The notes under the pieces were generated by a model. It did not search any database. It was not told the DNA's origin and worked only from the letters and a program-made list of their open reading frames with translations. 64,000 nucleotides of DNA from Alysiella crassa DSM 2578. Its GTDB lineage: Bacteria > Pseudomonadota > Gammaproteobacteria > Burkholderiales > Neisseriaceae. The first letter of the stretch is position 1; each line of letters opens with the position of its first letter. Position numbers and translations under genes: made by a program. The DNA lies in NCBI RefSeq assembly GCF_000745955.1, contig NZ_JQKH01000005.1, positions 1 to 64,000 of the forward strand, given 5' to 3'. Positions 1 through 9,420 of this stretch are shown here, in pieces.

Positions 1-149
1 TTTCAGGCAGCCTTACAGTACACGACAATTTTTACAAACACCCAAAATGTAGGGTGCGTACCACGCACCAAATCATTCAAATAATTGAAATTTCGGTGCG
101 TACCACGCACCCTACATGTAGGTGTCGTGTACTGTAAGGCAGCCTGAAA
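1..149. repeat. DUS-capped inverted-repeat element, GTAGGGTGCG core
   Basis: Both ends carry a DUS followed by the arm TTACAGTACACGACA, inverted at the right end (1-27 against 123-149, differing only at the central base of the DUS). Inside, 48-116 is a second palindrome beginning TGTAGGGTGCG and ending CGCACCCTACA. It fills the spacer downstream of the first terD gene. It is the best-preserved member of a family seen throughout the window. Confidence 0.8.
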
Positions 150-155
150 CATTCC

Positions 156-737
156 TTAAATATTCACACCATAATGTTTCGCCAAAGCCGCCAATCCACC
201 TTTAAAACCTTGACCAATCGCCTTGAATTTCCATTCACCATGATGACGGTAAATTTCGCCAAAAATCATCGCCGTTTCAATGGAAGCGTCTTCCGATAAA
301 TCAAAACGCGCCACTTCCACATCGTTGTTGGCGTTCACGCAACGAATATAGGCACTGGCGACTTGCCCGAAATTTTGTTTACGTACTTCCGCATCATGAA
401 TGGTTACGGTAATGGCAACTTTTTCTACATTGGCAGGGATTTTGCTCAAATCCACCACAATAATTTCATCATCGCCATCACCTACACCTACACCTGTACG
501 GTTGTCGCCTTGATGTTCTACTGCACCTGTGTCGGACTGGGTTTGATTGTAGAAAATGAAATCCGCATCTGAACGCACTTTGCCAGCCGCATTCAACAAA
601 AACGCGCTGCCGTCCAAATCAAAATCTGCACCGTCTGTGGCGCGCACGTCCCAGCCCAAACCGAGTTGCATTTTGGTTAAAGTGGGGGCTTCTTTACTCA
701 AATTGATGTTGCCACCTTTTTGCAAACTGATTGCCAT
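156..737 (-). CDS. terD: TerD family stress protein (copy 1)
   Basis: This 193-residue protein spans the whole TerD fold, whose usual length is about 190. Visible family motifs are GLGWD (residues 26-30), DFDLDGSAF (about 38-46), DFIFYNQ, GDNRTG and the acidic GDGDDE, which in characterised TerD proteins contribute to calcium binding. There is no signal peptide, so it is cytoplasmic. An AGGAG ribosome site lies just upstream of the ATG. It follows a second terD in the same direction, with a DUS-arm hairpin between. TerD proteins are linked to tellurite, metal and envelope stress; the exact activity is not known and resistance is only inferred. Confidence 0.93.
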
Positions 738-770
738 GATTGAAGAACTCCTGATTTTGATAAAAATGTG

Positions 771-835
771 TTTTCAGGCTGCCTTTGGGTACGCAATAAA
801 AATTGTGGATGGTGTACTGAAAGGCAGCCTGAAAA
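771..835. terminator. Opposed DUS pair between the two terD genes
   Basis: The 16-nt arms TTTTCAGGCTGCCTTT and AAAGGCAGCCTGAAAA are exactly complementary and separated by about 33 nt. The loop keeps remnants of the GTACGCAA and GTGTACTGAAA arms of the DUS-capped repeat family, so this looks like a core-less copy. It lies just after the stop of the upstream terD and probably ends that transcript, though the long loop makes this less certain. Confidence 0.6.
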
Positions 836-838
836 AAA

Positions 839-1417
839 TTACGCCACGTTCACACCATATTGTTGGCACAAACTCAGCAATCCGCCCGAATAACCCTGCC
901 CAATCGCACGGAATTTCCAATCGCCATTATGGCGGTACACTTCACCAAACACCATCGCTGTTTCTGTGCTGTAATCTTCCGACAAATCAAAGCGCAACAC
1001 TTCCTGCCCTGTTTCATGATTCACCAAACGCACAAAGGCGTTGCTCACTTGACCAAAATTTTGGCGGCGTAAATCCGCGTCATGAATCGTTACGGTGATG
1101 TACAAAGATTTGATGTTGGCAGGCACTTTATCCAATTCCACAATCACGCTTTCATCGTCGCCATCGCCGTCTCCCGTCAAATTATCCCCTGTGTGCTGTA
1201 CCGAACCGCATGGAGAAACCAGTTGATTATAAAAAATAAAATAATCATCTGATAACACTTTGCCTGTGTCGCTGGTCATGAACACGCTGGCATCCAAATC
1301 AAATGCTTGCCCATCGCTGCTGCGTGCGTCCCAGCCCAAGCCAATTAAGATGTGTTTTAAAGTAGGGTCTGTTTTGCTCAATGAAACATTTTGACCTTTG
1401 CTTAAAGTTACTGCCAT
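839..1417 (-). CDS. terD: TerD family stress protein (copy 2)
   Basis: A paralogue of the neighbouring terD, 192 residues from the chosen start. It has [27 protein letters not shown] and GDGDDE in the same order, so the calcium-binding acidic cluster is kept. The reading frame extends 23 codons further upstream, but that part comes from a DUS hairpin and lacks a ribosome site. The ATG at 1417 has AAGGAAATTGAT directly before it. The gene sits between terC and the other terD on the same strand. A function in tellurite or metal and envelope stress is inferred from the family. Confidence 0.93.
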
Positions 1418-1450
1418 ATCAATTTCCTTTTTATGCGTAAAAATAAAAAA

Positions 1451-1484
1451 GCTGCCTGAAAACAAATTGATGTTTTCAGGCAGC
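1451..1484. terminator. DUS-pair hairpin between terC and terD
   Basis: GCTGCCTGAAAACA (1451-1464) is perfectly complementary to TGTTTTCAGGCAGC (1471-1484), with a 6-nt loop. On the minus strand it follows terC and precedes terD copy 2, with a short T-rich tract after it, so it may end or attenuate the terC transcript. Two DUS-like 11-mers form the stem. Confidence 0.7.
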
Positions 1485-1516
1485 ATCGTTTTGCTGCTTT
1501 TCAGGCTGCCTGAAGA

Positions 1517-2608
1517 TTATTTTTCTGATGTATCTGATTGAGATGTCTTGTCTTCTGCTTTTTCAGGGAAAATAAATGATGCCACCACACCCAAAGTCAG
1601 TACAACCAATACCACCACCAAAGACTCATTTGGCGAAATCTCAAAACCATGATGGAATAAATGATTGGTCGCCGCCAAACCCAATTTGAACGCAATGAAA
1701 AACAGCAACACAATCACCGCTTTTTCCAAATGCACCAAATAGCCTTTCAAGGCTTCCAATACAAAATACAAAGTACGTAAACCCAAAATCGCAAACATCA
1801 TCGCGCTATACACAATCAAAGGTTCTTTGGACACCGCAATCACGGCTGGCACGCTGTCAAACGCAAACATCACGTCCGACAATTCAATCACTGCCAAACA
1901 CAAAAACAAGGGTGTGGCAACCAACTGACCTTTTTTCATGGGACTGGGGTGGCTGTTTTCAGGGTGCTTCACATCTTCACCAGCCAATTCCAATTTCACA
2001 TCAGGATACGTTTCGCGTGCTTTTTGCAATTCTGTCGCATTCAAAAAGAAATTGTGTCCATACAAACGCGGAAATACGGGGAAAAATTTATGCACCCAAC
2101 GGTATGCCAAATGTTCCGAATAGTCTTCATTTTCATCATCGCCATCATCTTGTTTCAACATCATCACGGCAGTCCATCCCACAATCAGCGCGAACACCAA
2201 TTCCACATACGGACCCAATGCCAACAAACCTGTGCCAATCGCCACAAAAATCATGCGGAACACAATCGCCCCCATAATTCCCCAATACAGCACGCGATGG
2301 CGCAAACCATCTGGTACTTTAAACCACGCAAATACTGCCATCATCAAAAACAGATTGTCCACCGATAATACTTTTTCCAGCGCATAGCCTGTGAAGAACA
2401 AACTCGCCATTTCGCTACCATGATGGAACCACAAAAACACACCAAATGCCAACGACACCAAAATCCAAAACACCGACCACAATGACGCACTTTTCAGCGA
2501 CATAGGTTTGTCGTCTCTGTGAGCAAACAGGTCAATTGCAATCGCACCAACTGATAAAATCACAAAAACGGCAACGGTTTCTATGGGGAAACCCAAATGT
2601 TCATTCAT
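1517..2608 (-). CDS. terC: TerC family integral membrane protein
   Basis: A 363-residue protein with about nine hydrophobic segments and the TerC/Alx signatures ALEKVLSVDNLFLM (near residue 77) and DVMFAFDSVPAV (near residue 245). The acidic residues inside these membrane segments are thought to handle metal ions, and related proteins export manganese. A charged cytoplasmic loop (DDGDDENED) lies between the halves. An AAGGA ribosome site precedes the ATG at 2608. It is divergent from the vWA/phosphatase/kinase operon across a 242-bp spacer and shares its strand with two terD genes, which fits a membrane partner of TerD. Metal transport is inferred from the family. Confidence 0.93.
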   Translation of the reverse strand: MNEHLGFPIETVAVFVILSVGAIAIDLFAHRDDKPMSLKSASLWSVFWILVSLAFGVFLWFHHGSEMASLFFTGYALEKVLSVDNLFLMMAVFAWFKVPDGLRHRVLYWGIMGAIVFRMIFVAIGTGLLALGPYVELVFALIVGWTAVMMLKQDDGDDENEDYSEHLAYRWVHKFFPVFPRLYGHNFFLNATELQKARETYPDVKLELAGEDVKHPENSHPSPMKKGQLVATPLFLCLAVIELSDVMFAFDSVPAVIAVSKEPLIVYSAMMFAILGLRTLYFVLEALKGYLVHLEKAVIVLLFFIAFKLGLAATNHLFHHGFEISPNESLVVVLVVLTLGVVASFIFPEKAEDKTSQSDTSEK

Positions 2609-2850
2609 AAATAAAATCCTTGTCTGATTGAGTAAAAATGAGTATTTGATTGTAATTGTAAATGATTTTACTCAAAACAAAAAATGATTTTTTACACGAA
2701 ATGCGTTTTTTCAGGCTGCCTGAACTTGTAAAATAAGTGTAATTATTTTACAATCAAAATGATAACAATATTTTCATAAAAATTCTTTATATTACAACTG
2801 TTTGTTTTTTACCAATCCTAAACTCTAAACCCTAATTTAAGGAGTGTGTT
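2609..2850. promoter_or_regulatory. Divergent control region of the Ter island
   Basis: This 242-bp, strongly AT-rich spacer separates terC (minus) from the first vWA gene (plus) and must contain promoters for both arms. One DUS lies near 2711-2725. TATATTACA near 2789 is a possible minus-10 region for the plus strand, but I see no convincing minus-35 box or operator palindrome. An AAGGAG ribosome site (2840-2845) serves the vWA gene. Confidence 0.4.
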
Positions 2851-3486
2851 ATGCGCCGTTTACCGATTTATTTGTTGATTGATACATCTGGCTCCATGCA
2901 TGGCGAAGCGATTGAAGCTGTGCGCAATGGTTTGCAAGTAATGGCAAATGCTTTACGCCAAGACCCTTACGCGCTGGAAACTGCGTATTTATCGGTGATT
3001 ACATTCAGCAGTTCTGCCAAGCAAATCACACCATTAACCGAATTGACAGATTTCCAAGTACCCAATATTCAAGCAAACGGCACTACCGCCATGGGTGAAG
3101 CATTGAGTTTACTGGCAGATTGTATTAACCGTGAAGTGGTCAAAGGCAGCGTGGAAGTGAAAGGCGATTGGAAACCACTCGTGTTTTTGTTGTCAGACGG
3201 TGCGCCCACCGACAATTTGAGCAAGGGCATTGCGGCGATGAAGGGCGTGAAAACGGGTGCATTCGTGGCGTGCGCGGCGGGTGCGTCTGCCGACACCGCC
3301 ACTTTACGACAAATCACGGAAACGGTGGTTTCTTTGGATACGGCAGATTCCAGCTCTATTGCAGCTTATTTTAAATGGGTATCGGCGTCCATTTCGGTAT
3401 CCAGCCAAAAAATTGAAAATGGCAAAGAAGTCAGTGGCTTGGACGAACTGCCCCCACCGCCCCCTACCATCAATGTGGTTCACTAA
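2851..3486 (+). CDS. terY: TerY-like von Willebrand factor A protein (copy 1)
   Basis: A 211-residue cytoplasmic vWA domain protein. The MIDAS metal site is visible as DTSGS (residues 11-15), a threonine in NGTTAMGEA and an aspartate in LSDGAPTD. After the vWA fold comes a short tail ending ELPPPPPTINVVH, which recurs almost unchanged in the second vWA protein of this cluster. It is first in a plus-strand operon followed 18 bp later by terD copy 3. In TerY-P systems a vWA protein is coded beside a PP2C phosphatase and a kinase, as here, and is thought to scaffold or sense through metal-dependent binding. That role is inferred. Confidence 0.9.
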   Translation: MRRLPIYLLIDTSGSMHGEAIEAVRNGLQVMANALRQDPYALETAYLSVITFSSSAKQITPLTELTDFQVPNIQANGTTAMGEALSLLADCINREVVKGSVEVKGDWKPLVFLLSDGAPTDNLSKGIAAMKGVKTGAFVACAAGASADTATLRQITETVVSLDTADSSSIAAYFKWVSASISVSSQKIENGKEVSGLDELPPPPPTINVVH

Positions 3487-3504
3487 AACAAATAGGAGCG
3501 TGAA

Positions 3505-4131
3505 ATGGCAATTTCCTTGCGAAAAGGTCAGGGCGTGAATTTACGCAAAGACACGGGTTTTGATTTGTCGCGTTTGAGTGTGGGTTTGGGTTGGGAAGTG
3601 GTCAATGCGTCGCCCGAATACGATTTGGACGCGGTGGCTTTTGTGTTAAACGCCAACGGCAAAGTCGGCAATTTGGGTAAATTGAATGAAAATGGTCGTC
3701 CTACTTTGATGGGGGGCGATGTGGTTTTCTACAATTCGCTGGTTCACCCAAGTGGCAAAATCCGTTTGAGTGGCGACAACCGCACGGGTTCAGCCAGCCA
3801 AAATGACGATGAAACCATTGAAGTGGATTTGGATAACTTGCCAGCAGAATACACGGCAATCGTGTTTTTGGTTACGATTTTCAAAGGCAAGGAACGCGGT
3901 CAATCTTTCGCAGGCGTGAATCAAGCACGCATTCGAGCTTTGGATGCCAAAGGTCGTGAAATTTGTTATTACGAAATCGGTGGCAAAAGCGACAACAGTA
4001 GTCATTGCACCATGACTTTTGCCCGTGTTGAACGCGATGCACAAGGCAGTTGGGTATTCCGTGCGGTAGGTGAATTTGCGGAAACCGACCGCTTTGTGGA
4101 CTTGCTTAAATCCGATTACATACCATATTGA
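3505..4131 (+). CDS. TerD family stress protein (copy 3, divergent)
   Basis: 208 residues, TerD fold, with GLGWEV in place of GLGWD, then YDLDAVAFVLN, DVVFYNS and SGDNRTG. The acidic stretch is changed: the GDGDDE of the other two copies is replaced by SASQNDDETIEVD. It also has an insertion around residues 50-70 (KVGNLGKLNENGRP) that the minus-strand copies lack. It therefore belongs to a different TerD subgroup, possibly TerZ/TerX-like. The ribosome site AGGAG precedes the ATG. It lies between the two vWA genes in one operon, and a DUS hairpin follows it. Calcium binding may be altered; this was not tested. Confidence 0.9.
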   Translation: MAISLRKGQGVNLRKDTGFDLSRLSVGLGWEVVNASPEYDLDAVAFVLNANGKVGNLGKLNENGRPTLMGGDVVFYNSLVHPSGKIRLSGDNRTGSASQNDDETIEVDLDNLPAEYTAIVFLVTIFKGKERGQSFAGVNQARIRALDAKGREICYYEIGGKSDNSSHCTMTFARVERDAQGSWVFRAVGEFAETDRFVDLLKSDYIPY

Positions 4132-4138
4132 TTTATTC

Positions 4139-4178
4139 AGGCTGCCTGAAAATGTTTTGTACCGTTTTTCAGGCAGCT
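4139..4178 (+). terminator. DUS-pair hairpin after terD copy 3
   Basis: AGGCTGCCTGAAAA (4139-4152) pairs with TTTTCAGGCAGCT (4166-4178), followed by TTTATT. It could partly separate the first vWA-terD pair from the second vWA, phosphatase and kinase genes. The next ribosome site begins only about 12 nt later, so it may act as an attenuator within the operon. Confidence 0.55.
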
Positions 4179-4203
4179 TTTATTCATTTGAAAAAGGAAA
4201 ATC

Positions 4204-4845
4204 ATGTCGCGCCGATTACTCACTTACATTTGCATTGATACTTCTGGCTCAATGCGTGGCGAACCCATTGAAGCGGTAAATGCTGGTTTACGCGCATTGA
4301 TGTCATCTTTGCGCCAAAATCCGTATGCTTTGGAAAGTGTGCATTTAAGCATCATCACGTTTGACAGCCAAATCAAAACCGTGCTGCCAATCACGCCTTT
4401 GGAACAAATCGTGCTGCCTGAAATCATTTGCCCCGAAAGTGGTGCCACTTTTTTGGGTGCTGCGTTGGAACACATTGTGGAAGCAGTACAGCGCGACCGC
4501 ATTGTGGGTTCAGCCCAGCAAAAAGGCGATTGGCGACCGATACTCATCGTTTTAACAGACGGCAAACCCACCGATTTGCTGGTGTTTAGTGAAACCGTGG
4601 CGAAAATCAAACAATTGGGTTTTGGCAACATTGTGGCGTGTGCCGCAGGTCCTAAAGCGGACGCAAGTTATTTGAAACAATTGAGTAACCATGTTGTTTC
4701 GTTGGATACGATGGACGCAGTTTCATTTGCTCAATTCTTCCAATGGGTTTCGTCTGCCGTATCGAAAAGCAGCGTGAGCGTGGGTAGCCCATCGCAAAGC
4801 ACAGAATTGCCACCGCCGCCTATTTCCATCAATGTTGTTTTGTAA
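4204..4845 (+). CDS. terY: TerY-like von Willebrand factor A protein (copy 2)
   Basis: 213 residues, paralogous to the first vWA protein. MIDAS residues are DTSGS (12-16), the threonine in SGATFLGAAL and the aspartate in LTDGKPTD. The C-terminal tail ELPPPPISINVVL matches the tail of copy 1 apart from a few residues, which suggests a conserved docking peptide. There is no signal sequence. An AAAGGAAA ribosome site precedes the start. The phosphatase gene begins 89 bp downstream on the same strand. By analogy with TerY-P triads, the two vWA proteins may be alternative adaptors or form a heteromer with the phosphatase and kinase; this is inference. Confidence 0.9.
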   Translation: MSRRLLTYICIDTSGSMRGEPIEAVNAGLRALMSSLRQNPYALESVHLSIITFDSQIKTVLPITPLEQIVLPEIICPESGATFLGAALEHIVEAVQRDRIVGSAQQKGDWRPILIVLTDGKPTDLLVFSETVAKIKQLGFGNIVACAAGPKADASYLKQLSNHVVSLDTMDAVSFAQFFQWVSSAVSKSSVSVGSPSQSTELPPPPISINVVL

Positions 4846-4934
4846 AGGGATATTCACAGGTATTTTGTGTGAGTGGTGCAAGATTTTGACATCACTTACT
4901 CATACAGCTAAACATAAGCACAGAGGATGACATC

Positions 4935-6782
4935 ATGAATAATTTAAAAAAATGGCAAGATTTTTGGGCGAAATGCGATGAAGCGGAATTTGCTGAATTT
5001 GTTGCACAAAATAAGGGACTGTTAACCCAATTACAGGAAAATTGGCTGCAATTTGTACATATAAAAAATGAAAATAATGTATCTGAAAATATGCCTAATT
5101 CACATAAAAATGCGAATGCAACAACGTTTTTCAGGCAGCCTGAAAGTGAAATCTCGGGAGAAAATGAAAATATTATTGTTTGTTCGGAAAACCATGTTCC
5201 CACTCAACATGAAAACGAAGTAACGGACAATACAGTTCATGTACCCGAATTGCCTGAATCTGCAACAAAAAACATGACACCAAATAACACGGTTATTGAA
5301 CCCAATCATTTACCCACACCCAGCCATCAAAATACAACAGTAAATGAAACCAATTTAGCCACAGTAAATATAGACAACATGGTTTTGAACAATACAACTT
5401 TCATACCATCTTCGCTCATTCAAAATGAAAATGAAATGGCAAATACCGCAATTGCGTCTCAACTGTCTGCAAATGAAAGCGTTGCGCCTACTGCTCCTGA
5501 AACCTTGGTAGCAGCAAAAGAAAAACCACTCACTACAGAAATTTCCAGCCAACCTGAACCGCAAAAAAATAACAGTAATCCCATGCCGCCAGCAAAACAC
5601 AGCACACCCTTACCCAATGCCCGCAAAGGAGAAGCTTATTTTGCTCAATTGCCGCCCAATGCCCAAGATTTGCGTATTCAGCCTGAATGTGGCTTGACAT
5701 GGGAAGCTGATACGCAACGCATTATTGGCACACCCAATTATTCGGGTGATGTACACATTACCTATTATTTAAATAATGGCAATCTAGACCCCATTCACCA
5801 CAGTCTCTACATCAACCCCAACCCCAAAGATTTGTGGGCAAATATTCCTACCGACCGCAATATCCCTTTCTACAAAGAGGACAATTACCACGAAGAACCA
5901 ACCATCACACCACATGGTATGTTACTGGCTGCACGCGTGCGTGGACGTTCACACGCCCATACGGGCAAACCTTGCGATGATGATTTTGCCATTCGCTACC
6001 ATTCCGCTACGGGTTTGCATTTTATTGCAGTATCAGATGGGGCAGGCAGCGCAGAGTATTCGCGTTTGGGTTCGCAAGTGGCAGTAGATAATGCCGCCGA
6101 TGCCGTGTGGCAAAAATTGGGCATGGGCGACCCCAACTTTTCCCTAAACCATAATCAAGATATCAAGCAGCGCAAAGAGGTGCTGGTCAATTTAGTCAAT
6201 CATGCCGCGTATCAAGCCATGGTGGCTTTGTACCAAACCGCCAAAGACAATGGCATTGAATTGAAAAAATTATCCTGTACCTTGTTGTTTATTTTGAGTT
6301 TACCGATTGAAGATGGTACATGGATAAATGCCATATACAGCGTTGGTGATGGCGCATTGGCAATTTGGCTGCCTGAAAACCAAACTTTGGCTTTTGTTGC
6401 TGAAAGCGACAGTGGTAGTTATTCGGGGGAAACACGCTTTTTAACCGCCGATGAAACCACTCTTGCCGCATTGCAAAAGCGCACCCGTTGTGGCATTTGT
6501 GCTTCACCGCCCGTTTTGTTTGCGATGACTGACGGTGTATCCGACCCGAAATTTGAAACCGATGCCCAACTCAAAAATCCACAAAAATGGCAAGATTTAT
6601 GGGCAGAATTACAAGATGTTTTGCAAGACAAACAGCCTGAACAAGCTTTGGAAAGGTGGCTGAATTTTTGGTCGGCAGGCAATCACGATGACCGTACTTT
6701 GGCGATGTTTGTGCCAAACGGCTTTTTCAGGCTGCCTGAAACTCCAAGTAAACCCACCGAAAACTCAGAAAGCACATCATGA
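4935..6782 (+). CDS. PP2C-family serine/threonine phosphatase with long low-complexity N-terminus
   Basis: 615 residues in three parts. Residues 1-40 are a short aromatic helix-like stretch (KKWQDFWAK). Residues about 45-235 are low-complexity and rich in Asn, Thr, Glu and Pro, with a DUS read as FRQPE. About 240-310 resembles a small beta-sandwich (TWEADTQRIIGTPNYSG). The PP2C domain follows: RGRSHAHTGKPCDDDF (about 334-349), VSDGAGS (about 366), MTDGVSD (about 531) and the terminal metal motif HDDRT (about 584). The metal aspartates are present, so it should be active. The kinase start overlaps its stop (ATGA at 6779), implying translational coupling. It probably reverses phosphorylation by that kinase. 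Confidence 0.88.
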   Translation: MNNLKKWQDFWAKCDEAEFAEFVAQNKGLLTQLQENWLQFVHIKNENNVSENMPNSHKNANATTFFRQPESEISGENENIIVCSENHVPTQHENEVTDNTVHVPELPESATKNMTPNNTVIEPNHLPTPSHQNTTVNETNLATVNIDNMVLNNTTFIPSSLIQNENEMANTAIASQLSANESVAPTAPETLVAAKEKPLTTEISSQPEPQKNNSNPMPPAKHSTPLPNARKGEAYFAQLPPNAQDLRIQPECGLTWEADTQRIIGTPNYSGDVHITYYLNNGNLDPIHHSLYINPNPKDLWANIPTDRNIPFYKEDNYHEEPTITPHGMLLAARVRGRSHAHTGKPCDDDFAIRYHSATGLHFIAVSDGAGSAEYSRLGSQVAVDNAADAVWQKLGMGDPNFSLNHNQDIKQRKEVLVNLVNHAAYQAMVALYQTAKDNGIELKKLSCTLLFILSLPIEDGTWINAIYSVGDGALAIWLPENQTLAFVAESDSGSYSGETRFLTADETTLAALQKRTRCGICASPPVLFAMTDGVSDPKFETDAQLKNPQKWQDLWAELQDVLQDKQPEQALERWLNFWSAGNHDDRTLAMFVPNGFFRLPETPSKPTENSESTS

Positions 6783-8278
6783 GCAATATTATTACCCTAA
6801 CCGCCACCAATGGCGAAACCATACAATTTGTAAACGAAATCAAAGCACAAGGCGGTATGAAAGATGTGATGTTTTCGCCCAACAAAGATTATGTGGTGGC
6901 TTTTTTTCGTGAGCCTGCCGATGTTGCTACGCGTGAACGTTTAGAACAAATCACAGGTTTGTATCGTAAGCGCATTTTTGAGCAAGAAGGTGGCGAATAT
7001 TTGAAAAAACTGTATTGTTGGCCCACCGCCGTGGTGGAACACAATGGTAAATTGGGTGTGGTTGCGCCGTTTTACCGCGATTGTTTTTTCTTTGAACACG
7101 GCAGCCGCAACAACGACATGCTCAACATCAAAGGCAAAGACAAAGACGGCAAATGGTTTGCCAGCGCATCCAACCGCAATCGCTTCCTTGACCCGCGTGA
7201 ATTGGGCGACTGGATGACACATTTGAAAATCTGCATCATGTTGTCCCGTGCCGTCAGACGCATGCACATGGCAGGTTTGAGCCACAGCGATTTGGGCTAC
7301 AAAAACTGTTTGATAGACCCCGTAACAGGTCAAGCCTGCCTGATTGACATTGACGGTTTGGTCGTACCTGGAAAACACCCACCCAGTGTGGTTGGCACAC
7401 CCGATTTCATTGCGCCCGAAGTCGTTGCCAGCGCACATCTGCCCAAAGATGACCCCAACCGCAAATTACCGAGCCGCACCACAGATTTACACGCTTTGGC
7501 GGTGCTGATTTACATGTATTTGCTGTATCGTCATCCTTTGCGCGGCGACAAAATTCACGACCCCAATGACAGTCAACGCGATGAAGAATTGAGCATGGGC
7601 AGCCAAGCCTTGTTCGTGGAACACCCGAAAGACAACAGCAACCGCATTAAAGTTGCCAACTGCAGATCCGCCGATTTACCTTGGAAAGACACCAACAAAA
7701 TCCCCTATACCGTTTGTGGTCCTTATATTGCAGATTTGTTTAAACGTGCTTTCATAGATGGGCTGCACCAACCAAACTCGCGCCCCACTGCCGATGAATG
7801 GGAACGTGCTTTGGTCAAAACGGTGGATTTGTTGCAACCTTGCAGCAATCCAAGTTGTGAGCAAAAATGGTATCCGTTTGACAACAGTCGCCGCCCTGTT
7901 TGTCCATTTTGTGGTACGCCGCATTCAGGCAGCCTGCCTGTGTTGAATTTGTATTCCGCCGCGCCCAACGACAGCTATCGCCTTGATAATCATCGCATTA
8001 TGGTTTATAGCGGACAATCGCTGTTCAAATGGCATGCCAACAGCACGGTTTTCCCCAATGAACGTCTTTCCGCCGATGAAGCCAAACGTGTGGGCTATTT
8101 TGTCTTGCACAATGGCAATTGGTGGCTGGTCAATGAAGGGCTACCTGAAATGTATGATGTACAAAATAAAATCGCCATTCCAATTGGTGGCAAAATCAAA
8201 TTAACCGAAGGCGCACAAGTTTTGCTACAAAAAGGGCAAGGTGGTCGCCTGATTTCGGTGCAAATGGCTGGGCAATAA
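6779..8278 (+). CDS. Protein-kinase-like protein with zinc ribbon and C-terminal FHA-like region
   Basis: 499 residues, translationally coupled to the PP2C gene. The kinase fold spans about 1-345. It has a glycine loop AQGGMKD, the catalytic loop HSDLGYKN (169-176, with Asp171 and Asn176), LIDIDG (188-193) in the DFG position, and GTPDFIAPE for the activation end. The usual beta-3 lysine is not obvious: the expected place reads DYVVAFFRE. A CxxxxC...CPFC zinc ribbon follows (about 354-380). The last 110 residues look like a degenerate FHA or beta-sandwich domain. It completes the vWA/phosphatase/kinase set of a TerY-P system. Activity should be considered unproven because of the lysine. Confidence 0.88.
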   Translation: MSNIITLTATNGETIQFVNEIKAQGGMKDVMFSPNKDYVVAFFREPADVATRERLEQITGLYRKRIFEQEGGEYLKKLYCWPTAVVEHNGKLGVVAPFYRDCFFFEHGSRNNDMLNIKGKDKDGKWFASASNRNRFLDPRELGDWMTHLKICIMLSRAVRRMHMAGLSHSDLGYKNCLIDPVTGQACLIDIDGLVVPGKHPPSVVGTPDFIAPEVVASAHLPKDDPNRKLPSRTTDLHALAVLIYMYLLYRHPLRGDKIHDPNDSQRDEELSMGSQALFVEHPKDNSNRIKVANCRSADLPWKDTNKIPYTVCGPYIADLFKRAFIDGLHQPNSRPTADEWERALVKTVDLLQPCSNPSCEQKWYPFDNSRRPVCPFCGTPHSGSLPVLNLYSAAPNDSYRLDNHRIMVYSGQSLFKWHANSTVFPNERLSADEAKRVGYFVLHNGNWWLVNEGLPEMYDVQNKIAIPIGGKIKLTEGAQVLLQKGQGGRLISVQMAGQ

Positions 8279-8559
8279 AATAATGTGAACTCAGGATAAG
8301 AAAATTGAATATTTCATGAAAGTAAACGCCATTCTCAACTCTTTCTTGGGATAAAAAATTTGAAAATTTCATGAAAATAAATGACTTGCGTAGAGTGGGT
8401 GCAAACACACCCTACGGCGGAATATTGATTAAAACAAGTCGTTAATGATTTCTTATCCCGAATTCATGTTAAATAAATCAGTTCATTTCAAAAAATAGTT
8501 GAGAGTGGCGTTATTAAAAAACTGATTTGATTATTTAAATTTCAATTTTAACTTTAATT
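8279..8559. other. Gene-free spacer with degenerate repeats
   Basis: AT-rich spacer between convergent genes. It holds a small inverted repeat (CGCCATTCTCAACT near 8319 against AGTTGAGAGTGGCG near 8499), two related ATTTCATGAAA(G/A)TAAA segments near 8312 and 8368, and a GTGGGTGCAAACACACCCTAC-like stretch near 8396. The segment from 8471 resembles 13730-13770. No open reading frame with a ribosome site was seen. Confidence 0.5.
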
Positions 8560-9420
8560 TTACCAATTATCCTGTTTCCCATGCACCGCCGCGTCCACCA
8601 ACAAATCCCCAAATCGCCCCATCGCCGCCAAACCACCATACGCCCACACCGCCGTCAGCACCCGATGATTATCCGCACGCGACATCGGCAAACGCCGCCA
8701 CAATGCGCTGTGCTGCAAAGTTCGCCCCACGTCCACAGGGTGCGGCTTCACCACAAGCAGCAAGGTGTTTTCAGGCAGCCGCGCCAGTTCGCCCAAACCA
8801 ATATTGGCAAAACCCCATTGATTGCTCGCCCCCGTCCACGCATTACGCAAACCCAATTTGCCCAGCACCACATGAAACAAACTCGTGTCGCCATAAATCC
8901 GCACCTGCCGCGCATTGATAAATTGCACCACCGCCACAGGGCGATGGGCAATTTTGCTTAACTGCTGTTTTTGTTGCATAAAACGCTGTTCGGTTGCCGT
9001 AATCAGCGTTTCGGCGGCGGTTTCGCGTTGCGCCAATTTTGCCAATTCGCGGGTGGCGGACACGGTTTTGTCCCATGTTGTGCCGCGCTCGTCTGCCATG
9101 TCAATTTGGTGGACGGGCGCGATTTTGCGTAAACTGTCCGCGCTGCCCATATAAAACGCCGTTTGCACAAAAAAATCGGGGCGCAAACGGGCTAAATATT
9201 CAATATTCGGCTGCATACGCACGCCAAAATCAGCAGTTTGGGCAGGCAAACGCGGATAGCCCACCCATTTTTGATAGGAAACCTTGTCTCCAGCCACCAA
9301 AGGCGGTGCGCCGATGGCGGTCAGCGTTTCCGATACTGTCCAATCAGACGTGGCAATGCGCGGCGCGGCGTATGCACAGGGCATCACACAAAATAGTATC
9401 AATAAGATGATTTTTTTCAT
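8560..9420 (-). CDS. Iron-siderophore ABC transporter periplasmic binding protein
   Basis: 286 residues with a cleavable signal peptide (about 1-18, ending AYAA). The body is a FhuD/BtuF-type binding fold: an early RIATSDWTVSETLTAIGAPP, NIEYLARLRPDFFV for the first lobe, a long linking helix (about 115-150), then VRIYGDTSLFHVVLGKLGLRNAW for the second lobe. It most resembles hydroxamate siderophore binders and would deliver ligand to an inner-membrane permease. No permease or ATPase adjoins it; a FepC/FhuC-type ATPase lies at 38470-39234 and a siderophore receptor at 62808. A GAGA ribosome site is weak but well placed. The ligand is unknown. Confidence 0.85.
   Translation of the reverse strand: MKKIILLILFCVMPCAYAAPRIATSDWTVSETLTAIGAPPLVAGDKVSYQKWVGYPRLPAQTADFGVRMQPNIEYLARLRPDFFVQTAFYMGSADSLRKIAPVHQIDMADERGTTWDKTVSATRELAKLAQRETAAETLITATEQRFMQQKQQLSKIAHRPVAVVQFINARQVRIYGDTSLFHVVLGKLGLRNAWTGASNQWGFANIGLGELARLPENTLLLVVKPHPVDVGRTLQHSALWRRLPMSRADNHRVLTAVWAYGGLAAMGRFGDLLVDAAVHGKQDNW

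Follow-up and report, generated by a model that had tools for sequence, protein, structure and literature searches.

Can the phosphorylation switch of a ter stress locus run without its TerY_C subunit? The question is raised by a locus near the start of contig NZ_JQKH01000005.1 (contig C4 below) of Alysiella crassa DSM 2578, a member of the Neisseriaceae. The window, i.e., the whole stretch of DNA analyzed, comprises the first 64,000 bases of this contig; the genome (G000) amounts to 2.76 Mb in 157 contigs. Five collinear genes occupy positions 2851-8278 on the forward strand: vWA1, terX, vWA2, a PP2C-family phosphatase gene and a protein kinase gene. This order, and its description as a TerY-P-type module composed of vWA, PP2C and a zinc-ribbon kinase alongside ter genes, had been proposed in a first-pass annotation made from the letters alone, and is borne out by open reading frames and Pfam matches. 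On balance, the locus probably represents a TerY-P-type arm, within a ter stress locus, that has lost TerY_C and is paired with a divergent terC-terD-terD-terD arm, its predicted phosphorylation switch running without TerY_C.

TerY_C is missing from the arm and from the genome. No profile match was found in the first 20 kb of the window or in the congener locus (L016), even at an E-value of 10. The site at which most relatives carry the gene for a vWA protein with TerY_C (4846-4934, forward strand) is occupied here by 89 bases without a TerY_C match. The TerY_C family, PF15616, was absent from the whole genome and from that of the congener (G066), a complete single-contig genome with the same five-gene arm; the same search was positive in G002 and G040, and none of the 14 control genomes carries the family. 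The system had been called near-complete at first, which is wrong in one respect, the absent vWA gene with TerY_C.

The standard arm was established by profile typing of the window, the loci L016, L013, L014, L015, L017 and L018, and 80 kinase relatives, the best of the 285 confirmed in the genome collection. These 80 were selected for their similarity to the query and are not an even sample of the family. Counted were 76 loci with PP2C and kinase present and more than 4.5 kb upstream; L018, which lies on the same contig as L058, was dropped. Gene order was read from the vWA, TerD, TerY_C, PP2C and kinase genes on the strand of the kinase only. The commonest order is vWA-TerD-vWA-TerY_C-PP2C-kinase (36/76 loci), and TerD is embedded between vWA genes in 45/76 loci, the window and L016 included. 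Two vWA genes with an embedded TerD gene are the standard arm and not, as initially proposed, special features of this locus. TerY_C was typed in 72 of the 76 loci; the remaining four are the window, L016, L058 and L117. The last of these (Electronema) was rejected as a TerY_C-less case, as TerY_C was found in its genome on a contig of the same length (91,838 bases), just past where the fetched stretch stops; with L117 counted as a carrier, TerY_C stands at or near 73/76 loci. Outside the 76, with shorter flanks, a Magnetococcales (L095) and a Chromatiaceae (L104) metagenome-assembled genome show the order TerD-vWA-vWA-PP2C-kinase without TerY_C. PF15616 was not found in the genomes of L095, L104, L058 and L042 (Psittacicella), assemblies that may be incomplete; in Psittacicella the vWA, vWA and PP2C genes stand together at a contig start and the kinase gene at a contig end elsewhere in the assembly. 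Loci L114 and L115 lie at contig ends and are uninformative on TerY_C.

The kinase tree pairs the window with L016 (starred, 100/99) and places the two within a starred set of six rows (99/87) that includes TerY_C carriers. The closer grouping of the pair with Conchiformibius steedae is unstarred (90/66). Loss of TerY_C within this group is the simpler reading. A label test on the tree was uninformative, with 3 changes versus a shuffled mean of 2.7, comparing the TerY_C-less rows (L115 and L117 included) with three unknown rows only, the 75 carriers being left out.

Comparison with the congener suggests that the reduced module is kept by selection. Ratios of nonsynonymous to synonymous substitution (dN/dS) were obtained by a simple counting method for eight genes, TerD3 left out, at dS values of 0.72-1.09, which are near saturation. 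They range from 0.056 to 0.162 for TerD1, TerD2, TerC, vWA1, TerX, vWA2 and the kinase, and reach 0.235, the highest of the eight, for the catalytic part of PP2C (67% identity). Identity to the congener is 90% for the kinase and 80% for TerX, and the eight compared genes are open in both species. Since both species are without TerY_C, selection probably acted after its loss. An ordinary ter locus in decay, in which the loss of TerY_C would be one erosion step and the remainder would be drifting, is unlikely: PP2C is indeed the fastest-evolving of the genes and further ter genes were not found, but eight open genes with dN/dS of 0.06-0.24 and so conserved a kinase speak against drift.

The further genes counted on the side of decay are TerB and StiP, sought in the genome, and, in the window, TerW together with the remaining biosynthetic genes. 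TerB (PF05099) is absent genome-wide from G000 and G066, with 4 of 14 control genomes positive, and StiP is absent from both genomes; G040, with TerY_C and StiP, holds a fuller set within the family. With E. coli queries, tblastn (E up to 1e-6) found neither TerW nor the ATP-grasp, PRTase, HAD-like, HpcH and DUF4236 proteins in the 64 kb window, to which that search was confined. A tblastn search with TerA, covering the window and contig C97, matched only the TerD genes; genome-wide, PF02342 gave five matches in four genes, none of them in a frame of TerA length. The first-pass annotation had seen no terA, terB or biosynthetic partners, and for TerB and StiP this holds for the whole genome. 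As a distinguishing mark it carries less weight: of the 59 loci with 9 kb or more to either side of the kinase, 26 have none of five biosynthetic genes in the stretch fetched, so such absence is not rare.

The locus is also rare in the family, in keeping with decay. Within the Neisseriaceae the kinase occurs in 5/83 genomes and TerD in 6/83, the window's own genome counted, and in an even sample of the class the kinase was found in 1/370 genomes (E up to 1e-60), namely the window's own, which gave no further loci for the comparison of TerY_C. Kinase matches occur in 2355 of 72,556 plasmid records, and the three plasmids inspected, from C. steedae, E. coli and K. pneumoniae, all have the arm vWA-TerD-vWA-[vWA+TerY_C]-PP2C-kinase. 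The locus is accessory and patchily distributed, and in C. steedae it sits on a plasmid. A scan of the genome collection with the PP2C query gave no match.

If the switch runs without TerY_C, the two remaining vWA proteins become its candidate adaptors. vWA1 (2851-3486) and vWA2 (4204-4845), both TerY-like and on the forward strand, match Pfam VWA (3.9e-12 and 6.3e-12) and carry the DxSxS motif of a metal ion-dependent adhesion site (MIDAS). They end in the tails LPPPPPTINVVH and LPPPPISINVVL, respectively. Such short vWA proteins end in an LPPPP(P)..NVV-like tail, located in the window at 3448-3483 and 4807-4842; a strict tail pattern is present in 134 of 160 vWA open reading frames without TerY_C. 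A filter for short vWA proteins (E below 1e-40, 180-320 residues, L018 dropped) left 149, of which 139 are unique. PPPP occurs in the last 25 residues of 135/139 unique short vWA proteins versus 0/70 unique TerY_C-bearing ones, while the DxSxSM motif is present in 138/139 and 70/70, respectively. The four short proteins without PPPP come from L058 (APPPEINVVL), L110 (LPAPPANVKPTVI), and L047 and L058 (no such tail). Tail-bearing short vWA proteins range from Neisseriaceae to Bacteroidota. Cardiobacterium (L043) was rejected as a case without short vWA genes, as these were found elsewhere in the genome. TerX (3505-4131, forward strand), encoded between the two vWA genes, is a divergent TerD-domain protein (Pfam TerD, 3.9e-43) whose acidic loop reads GSASQNDDE.

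The phosphatase gene (4935-6782) and the kinase gene (6779-8278), both on the forward strand, overlap by ATGA, as noted from the start, and do so in the congener as well. The PP2C-family protein (PP2C_2, PF13672, 1.4e-33) has its catalytic domain at residues 336-577, behind a long N-terminal part of low complexity. This part (window 4935-5610) is a long Asn/Thr/Pro-rich stretch, and the whole protein has 615 residues versus 517 in the congener, next to a kinase that is 90% identical. The kinase (Pkinase, 3.9e-10) is followed by a zinc ribbon (C355, C360, C375, C378), the four cysteines of which are invariant in 48 sequences, and then by a domain of 119 residues (381-499; window 7919-8275) that is modeled as an FHA fold. 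The model of the full kinase has a predicted local distance difference test score (pLDDT) of 91.2, and its matches are kinase folds; the C-terminal domain folded alone has a pLDDT of 91.4. In the VIA comparison, the best match of this domain is an FHA domain (Z 10.1, root-mean-square deviation 2.9 over 98 residues). FHA stands in the title of 34 of the 50 rows listed, and the remaining 16 are for the most part FHA-bearing proteins as well (OdhI, GarA, Rad53, EmbR and others). The domain is placed with the FHA folds by structure models and not by sequence profiles, and zinc ribbon and FHA-fold domain together appear to be family-wide, common to the relatives aligned (41 for the FHA-fold domain). 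The same genome holds an open frame with two ordinary FHA matches (C15:19751-20299, L138).

The fold after the zinc ribbon also bears on a possible role in defense. The module might guard against phages, like stand-alone antiphage TerY-P-like modules with another kinase C-terminus; those whose kinase has an OB-fold are reported as antiphage in the accessible text of PMC11090510 (citing Gao 2020), and loss of terC in K. pneumoniae lowered resistance to four of eight phages according to the available portion of PMC12054061. For the locus of A. crassa this role is improbable. The VIA rows listed for the domain after the zinc ribbon point to FHA folds, although an OB-fold outside the listed rows is possible, and the arm has no nuclease gene. 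The kinase matches returned by PADLOC were all weak and generic (PD-T4-6, mad6, MkoA), and the vWA proteins and PP2C had none, the presence of a TerY-P model in its library being unchecked. PP2C had no match among phage records; the PHROGs families matched were three vWA-like ones and a TerD-like one, their function unknown, and, for TerC, a membrane-protein family.

That the five genes form one simple transcript is open to doubt. Between terX and vWA2 lies a hairpin of an inverted DNA-uptake sequence with a U-rich tail (4139-4179, forward strand; -20.9 kcal/mol, z -4.8; 0/200 shuffles as good). Its counterpart at the same gap in the congener (L016 11770-11723) reaches -28.2 kcal/mol (z -3.0), and C. 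steedae shows a weak fold there (z -1.9). Because the hairpin ends about 24 bases (window) or 15 bases (congener) before the start of vWA2, transcripts of vWA2-PP2C-kinase must pass it, unless a promoter overlaps the hairpin. The operon proposed earlier therefore stands as far as collinearity goes, while a single five-gene transcript is doubtful given this hairpin. The window contains 12 distinct sites with inverted pairs of the DNA-uptake sequence (13 in the list, two of which overlap), so such hairpins are typical of the genome and not special to the ter locus. Sigma-70-like sites numbered 11 versus 15.5 expected, and no promoter is claimed. A putative RNA element before terC was rejected, since the four Rfam matches (positions 1-9000, E up to 1) were weak and fell well short of the gathering score.

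The divergent arm, with terC and two terD genes on the reverse strand, had been recognized at the outset; a third terD is added here. TerC (1517-2608, reverse strand) is a membrane protein of the TerC/Alx family by open reading frame, Pfam and TIGR03718 (341.1 bits versus a cut-off of 246.4). It is followed by a terminator-like hairpin of 14 pairs and then TTTTTTATTT (1451-1484, reverse strand), by TerD1 (839-1417, reverse strand), by a hairpin of an inverted DNA-uptake sequence (771-835) and by TerD2 (156-737, reverse strand; open reading frame, Pfam). The start of terD1 was moved from 1486 to 1417, which is more likely because the former adjoins the 14-pair hairpin 1484-1451 and the TerD match begins after the hairpin. 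The terC|terD1 hairpin, likewise of an inverted DNA-uptake sequence, has a similar one at that gap in the congener (z -4.8 in either species), and that between terD1 and terD2 has z -7.9 in the window and is weak in the congener (z -1.5). The third terD lies beyond the window end, on contig C97 (364-960), the first 338 bases of which match the first 338 of the window exactly, on the other strand. After the overlap, C97 carries this terD and then, on the opposite strand, an asparaginase-like gene (name read from sequence). The join of C4 and C97 would follow from the 338-base end overlap and agrees with the order terC-terD-terD-(AIM24 gene)-terD in the congener. The AIM24-family gene between terD2 and terD3 there (L016 15793-16491) is not at that place in C97.

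Two adjacent but separate functions, with the terC-terD arm serving metals and the TerY-P arm signaling to something unrelated, would suit the divergent transcription and the hairpins between several genes. The arms are also rearranged in relatives, and Cardiobacterium valvarum has its short vWA pair (G456:C2:2603677-2605591) about 2.2 Mb from TerY_C-PP2C-kinase on the same contig. Yet TerD genes lie inside the fetched stretch of 69/76 loci and, as counted above, within the arm itself in more than half, which makes such a division very unlikely.

For the proposed TerY-P-type switch without TerY_C, the following mechanism may be envisaged. Kinase and PP2C would act as antagonists and together set how far a ter complex is phosphorylated, with the kinase itself, TerX and the TerD proteins as candidate substrates. 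The two MIDAS vWA proteins would serve as adaptors, their LPPPP(P)..NVV tails docking on a common partner. Envelope stress, or a change in divalent metals handled by TerC/Alx, might shift the balance between kinase and phosphatase. TerY_C would contribute a zinc-binding sensor or regulator to canonical loci, whereas the present switch would operate through the tail-bearing vWA proteins alone. Published work touches on parts of this scheme. TerY-P triads are hypothesized to be a metal-sensing phosphorylation switch in the part of PMC11090510 at hand. For K. pneumoniae, the available text of PMC12054061 reports lower Te and Zn resistance and slightly lower Mn resistance upon terC loss, and that of PMC9933665 lower tolerance to polymyxin B, ofloxacin and cetylpyridinium chloride (CPC).

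A further step would be to regard TerY_C as a dispensable add-on and not the core sensor, the switch consisting of kinase-PP2C plus two tail-docked MIDAS vWA adaptors, with the cryptic FHA-fold domain of the kinase assembling or reading the complex. This extension is tentative. The genus amounts to a natural deletion that tests whether TerY_C is dispensable, and TerY_C was also not found in the genomes of L042, L058, L095 and L104, although the second vWA protein of L058 lacks the tail and gaps in these assemblies are possible.

Several points weigh against the proposed switch. A strongly diverged TerY_C could escape PF15616, and the G000 assembly is split into 157 contigs. The window and congener loci have different flanking genes; the locus therefore moved or was acquired separately, which weakens the inference of selection after the loss. 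The terX|vWA2 hairpin (4139-4179) may split vWA1-terX off from vWA2-PP2C-kinase. With regard to the kinase, the best Foldseek match is an FHA domain at E 2.1e-3, none being below 0.001, and sequence evidence for an FHA domain failed throughout: no Pfam FHA match in 41 family members (E up to 10), no PDB sequence match, and probabilities of at most 0.5% in hhalign versus 30 FHA domains from other genomes. The usual FHA signature residues do not figure in the invariant columns of the domain, and for this reason phosphothreonine binding may have been lost. Finally, terC is dispensable for resistance to metals and reactive oxygen species in the accessible part of PMC9933665, which speaks against a metal signal and is at odds with PMC12054061.

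One of the known systems closest to the locus is the arm of enterobacterial plasmids for which the available text of PMC12054061 gives the cluster name terY-CYXYW. Both have the order vWA-TerD-vWA, adjacent PP2C and kinase genes and the same C-terminal tails; the kinases are 62% identical over nearly the full length, and vWA1 and vWA2 are 64% and 52% identical to the E. coli plasmid proteins. In contrast to the enterobacterial arm, that of the window has no TerY_C gene. The E. coli and K. pneumoniae stretches also carry TerW, terZ/A and the ATP-grasp/PRTase/HAD/StiP/HpcH set, which were not found in the window. A near relative outside the genus is the ter locus of C. steedae plasmid pDSM2580_2 (kinase 84%, vWA1 80%, vWA2 82% and TerC 84% identical). 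Like the genome of A. crassa, C. steedae has neither StiP nor TerB; unlike the window locus, its own has TerY_C, has the ter genes on one strand, contains a HerA-TerD fusion and is plasmid-borne. The fusion, of a HerA-like helicase with TerD inside the ter locus, is encoded at L013 18587-20491 (HerA_C 4.8e-176, TerD 9.2e-48). The TerY-P triads of Type II and III-A CoCoNuT systems likewise combine vWA, PP2C and a kinase with a C-terminal zinc ribbon, but, as far as the accessible text of PMC11090510 goes, are tied to McrBC-like nuclease systems, whereas the module of the window, which was annotated over about its first 14 kb, is tied to terC and terD genes. A kinase in the available part of PMC7159879, linked to PP2C and vWA, has the same domain order as here, a zinc ribbon followed by a 'beta-strand-rich domain'; the latter is left unnamed in that text, whereas in the window kinase a model places it with the FHA folds.

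The noteworthy variation of the locus is the missing TerY_C; the relatives aligned have the FHA-fold domain as well as the vWA tail. Signal and substrates of TerY-P are only hypothesized in the portion of the literature consulted (PMC11090510), though the module is present on many enterobacterial plasmids. A naturally occurring module that lacks the metal-binding subunit but seems to remain under selection separates the 'metal sensor' from the 'switch', and the vWA tail and the FHA-fold domain would provide two concrete handles for binding across the whole family.

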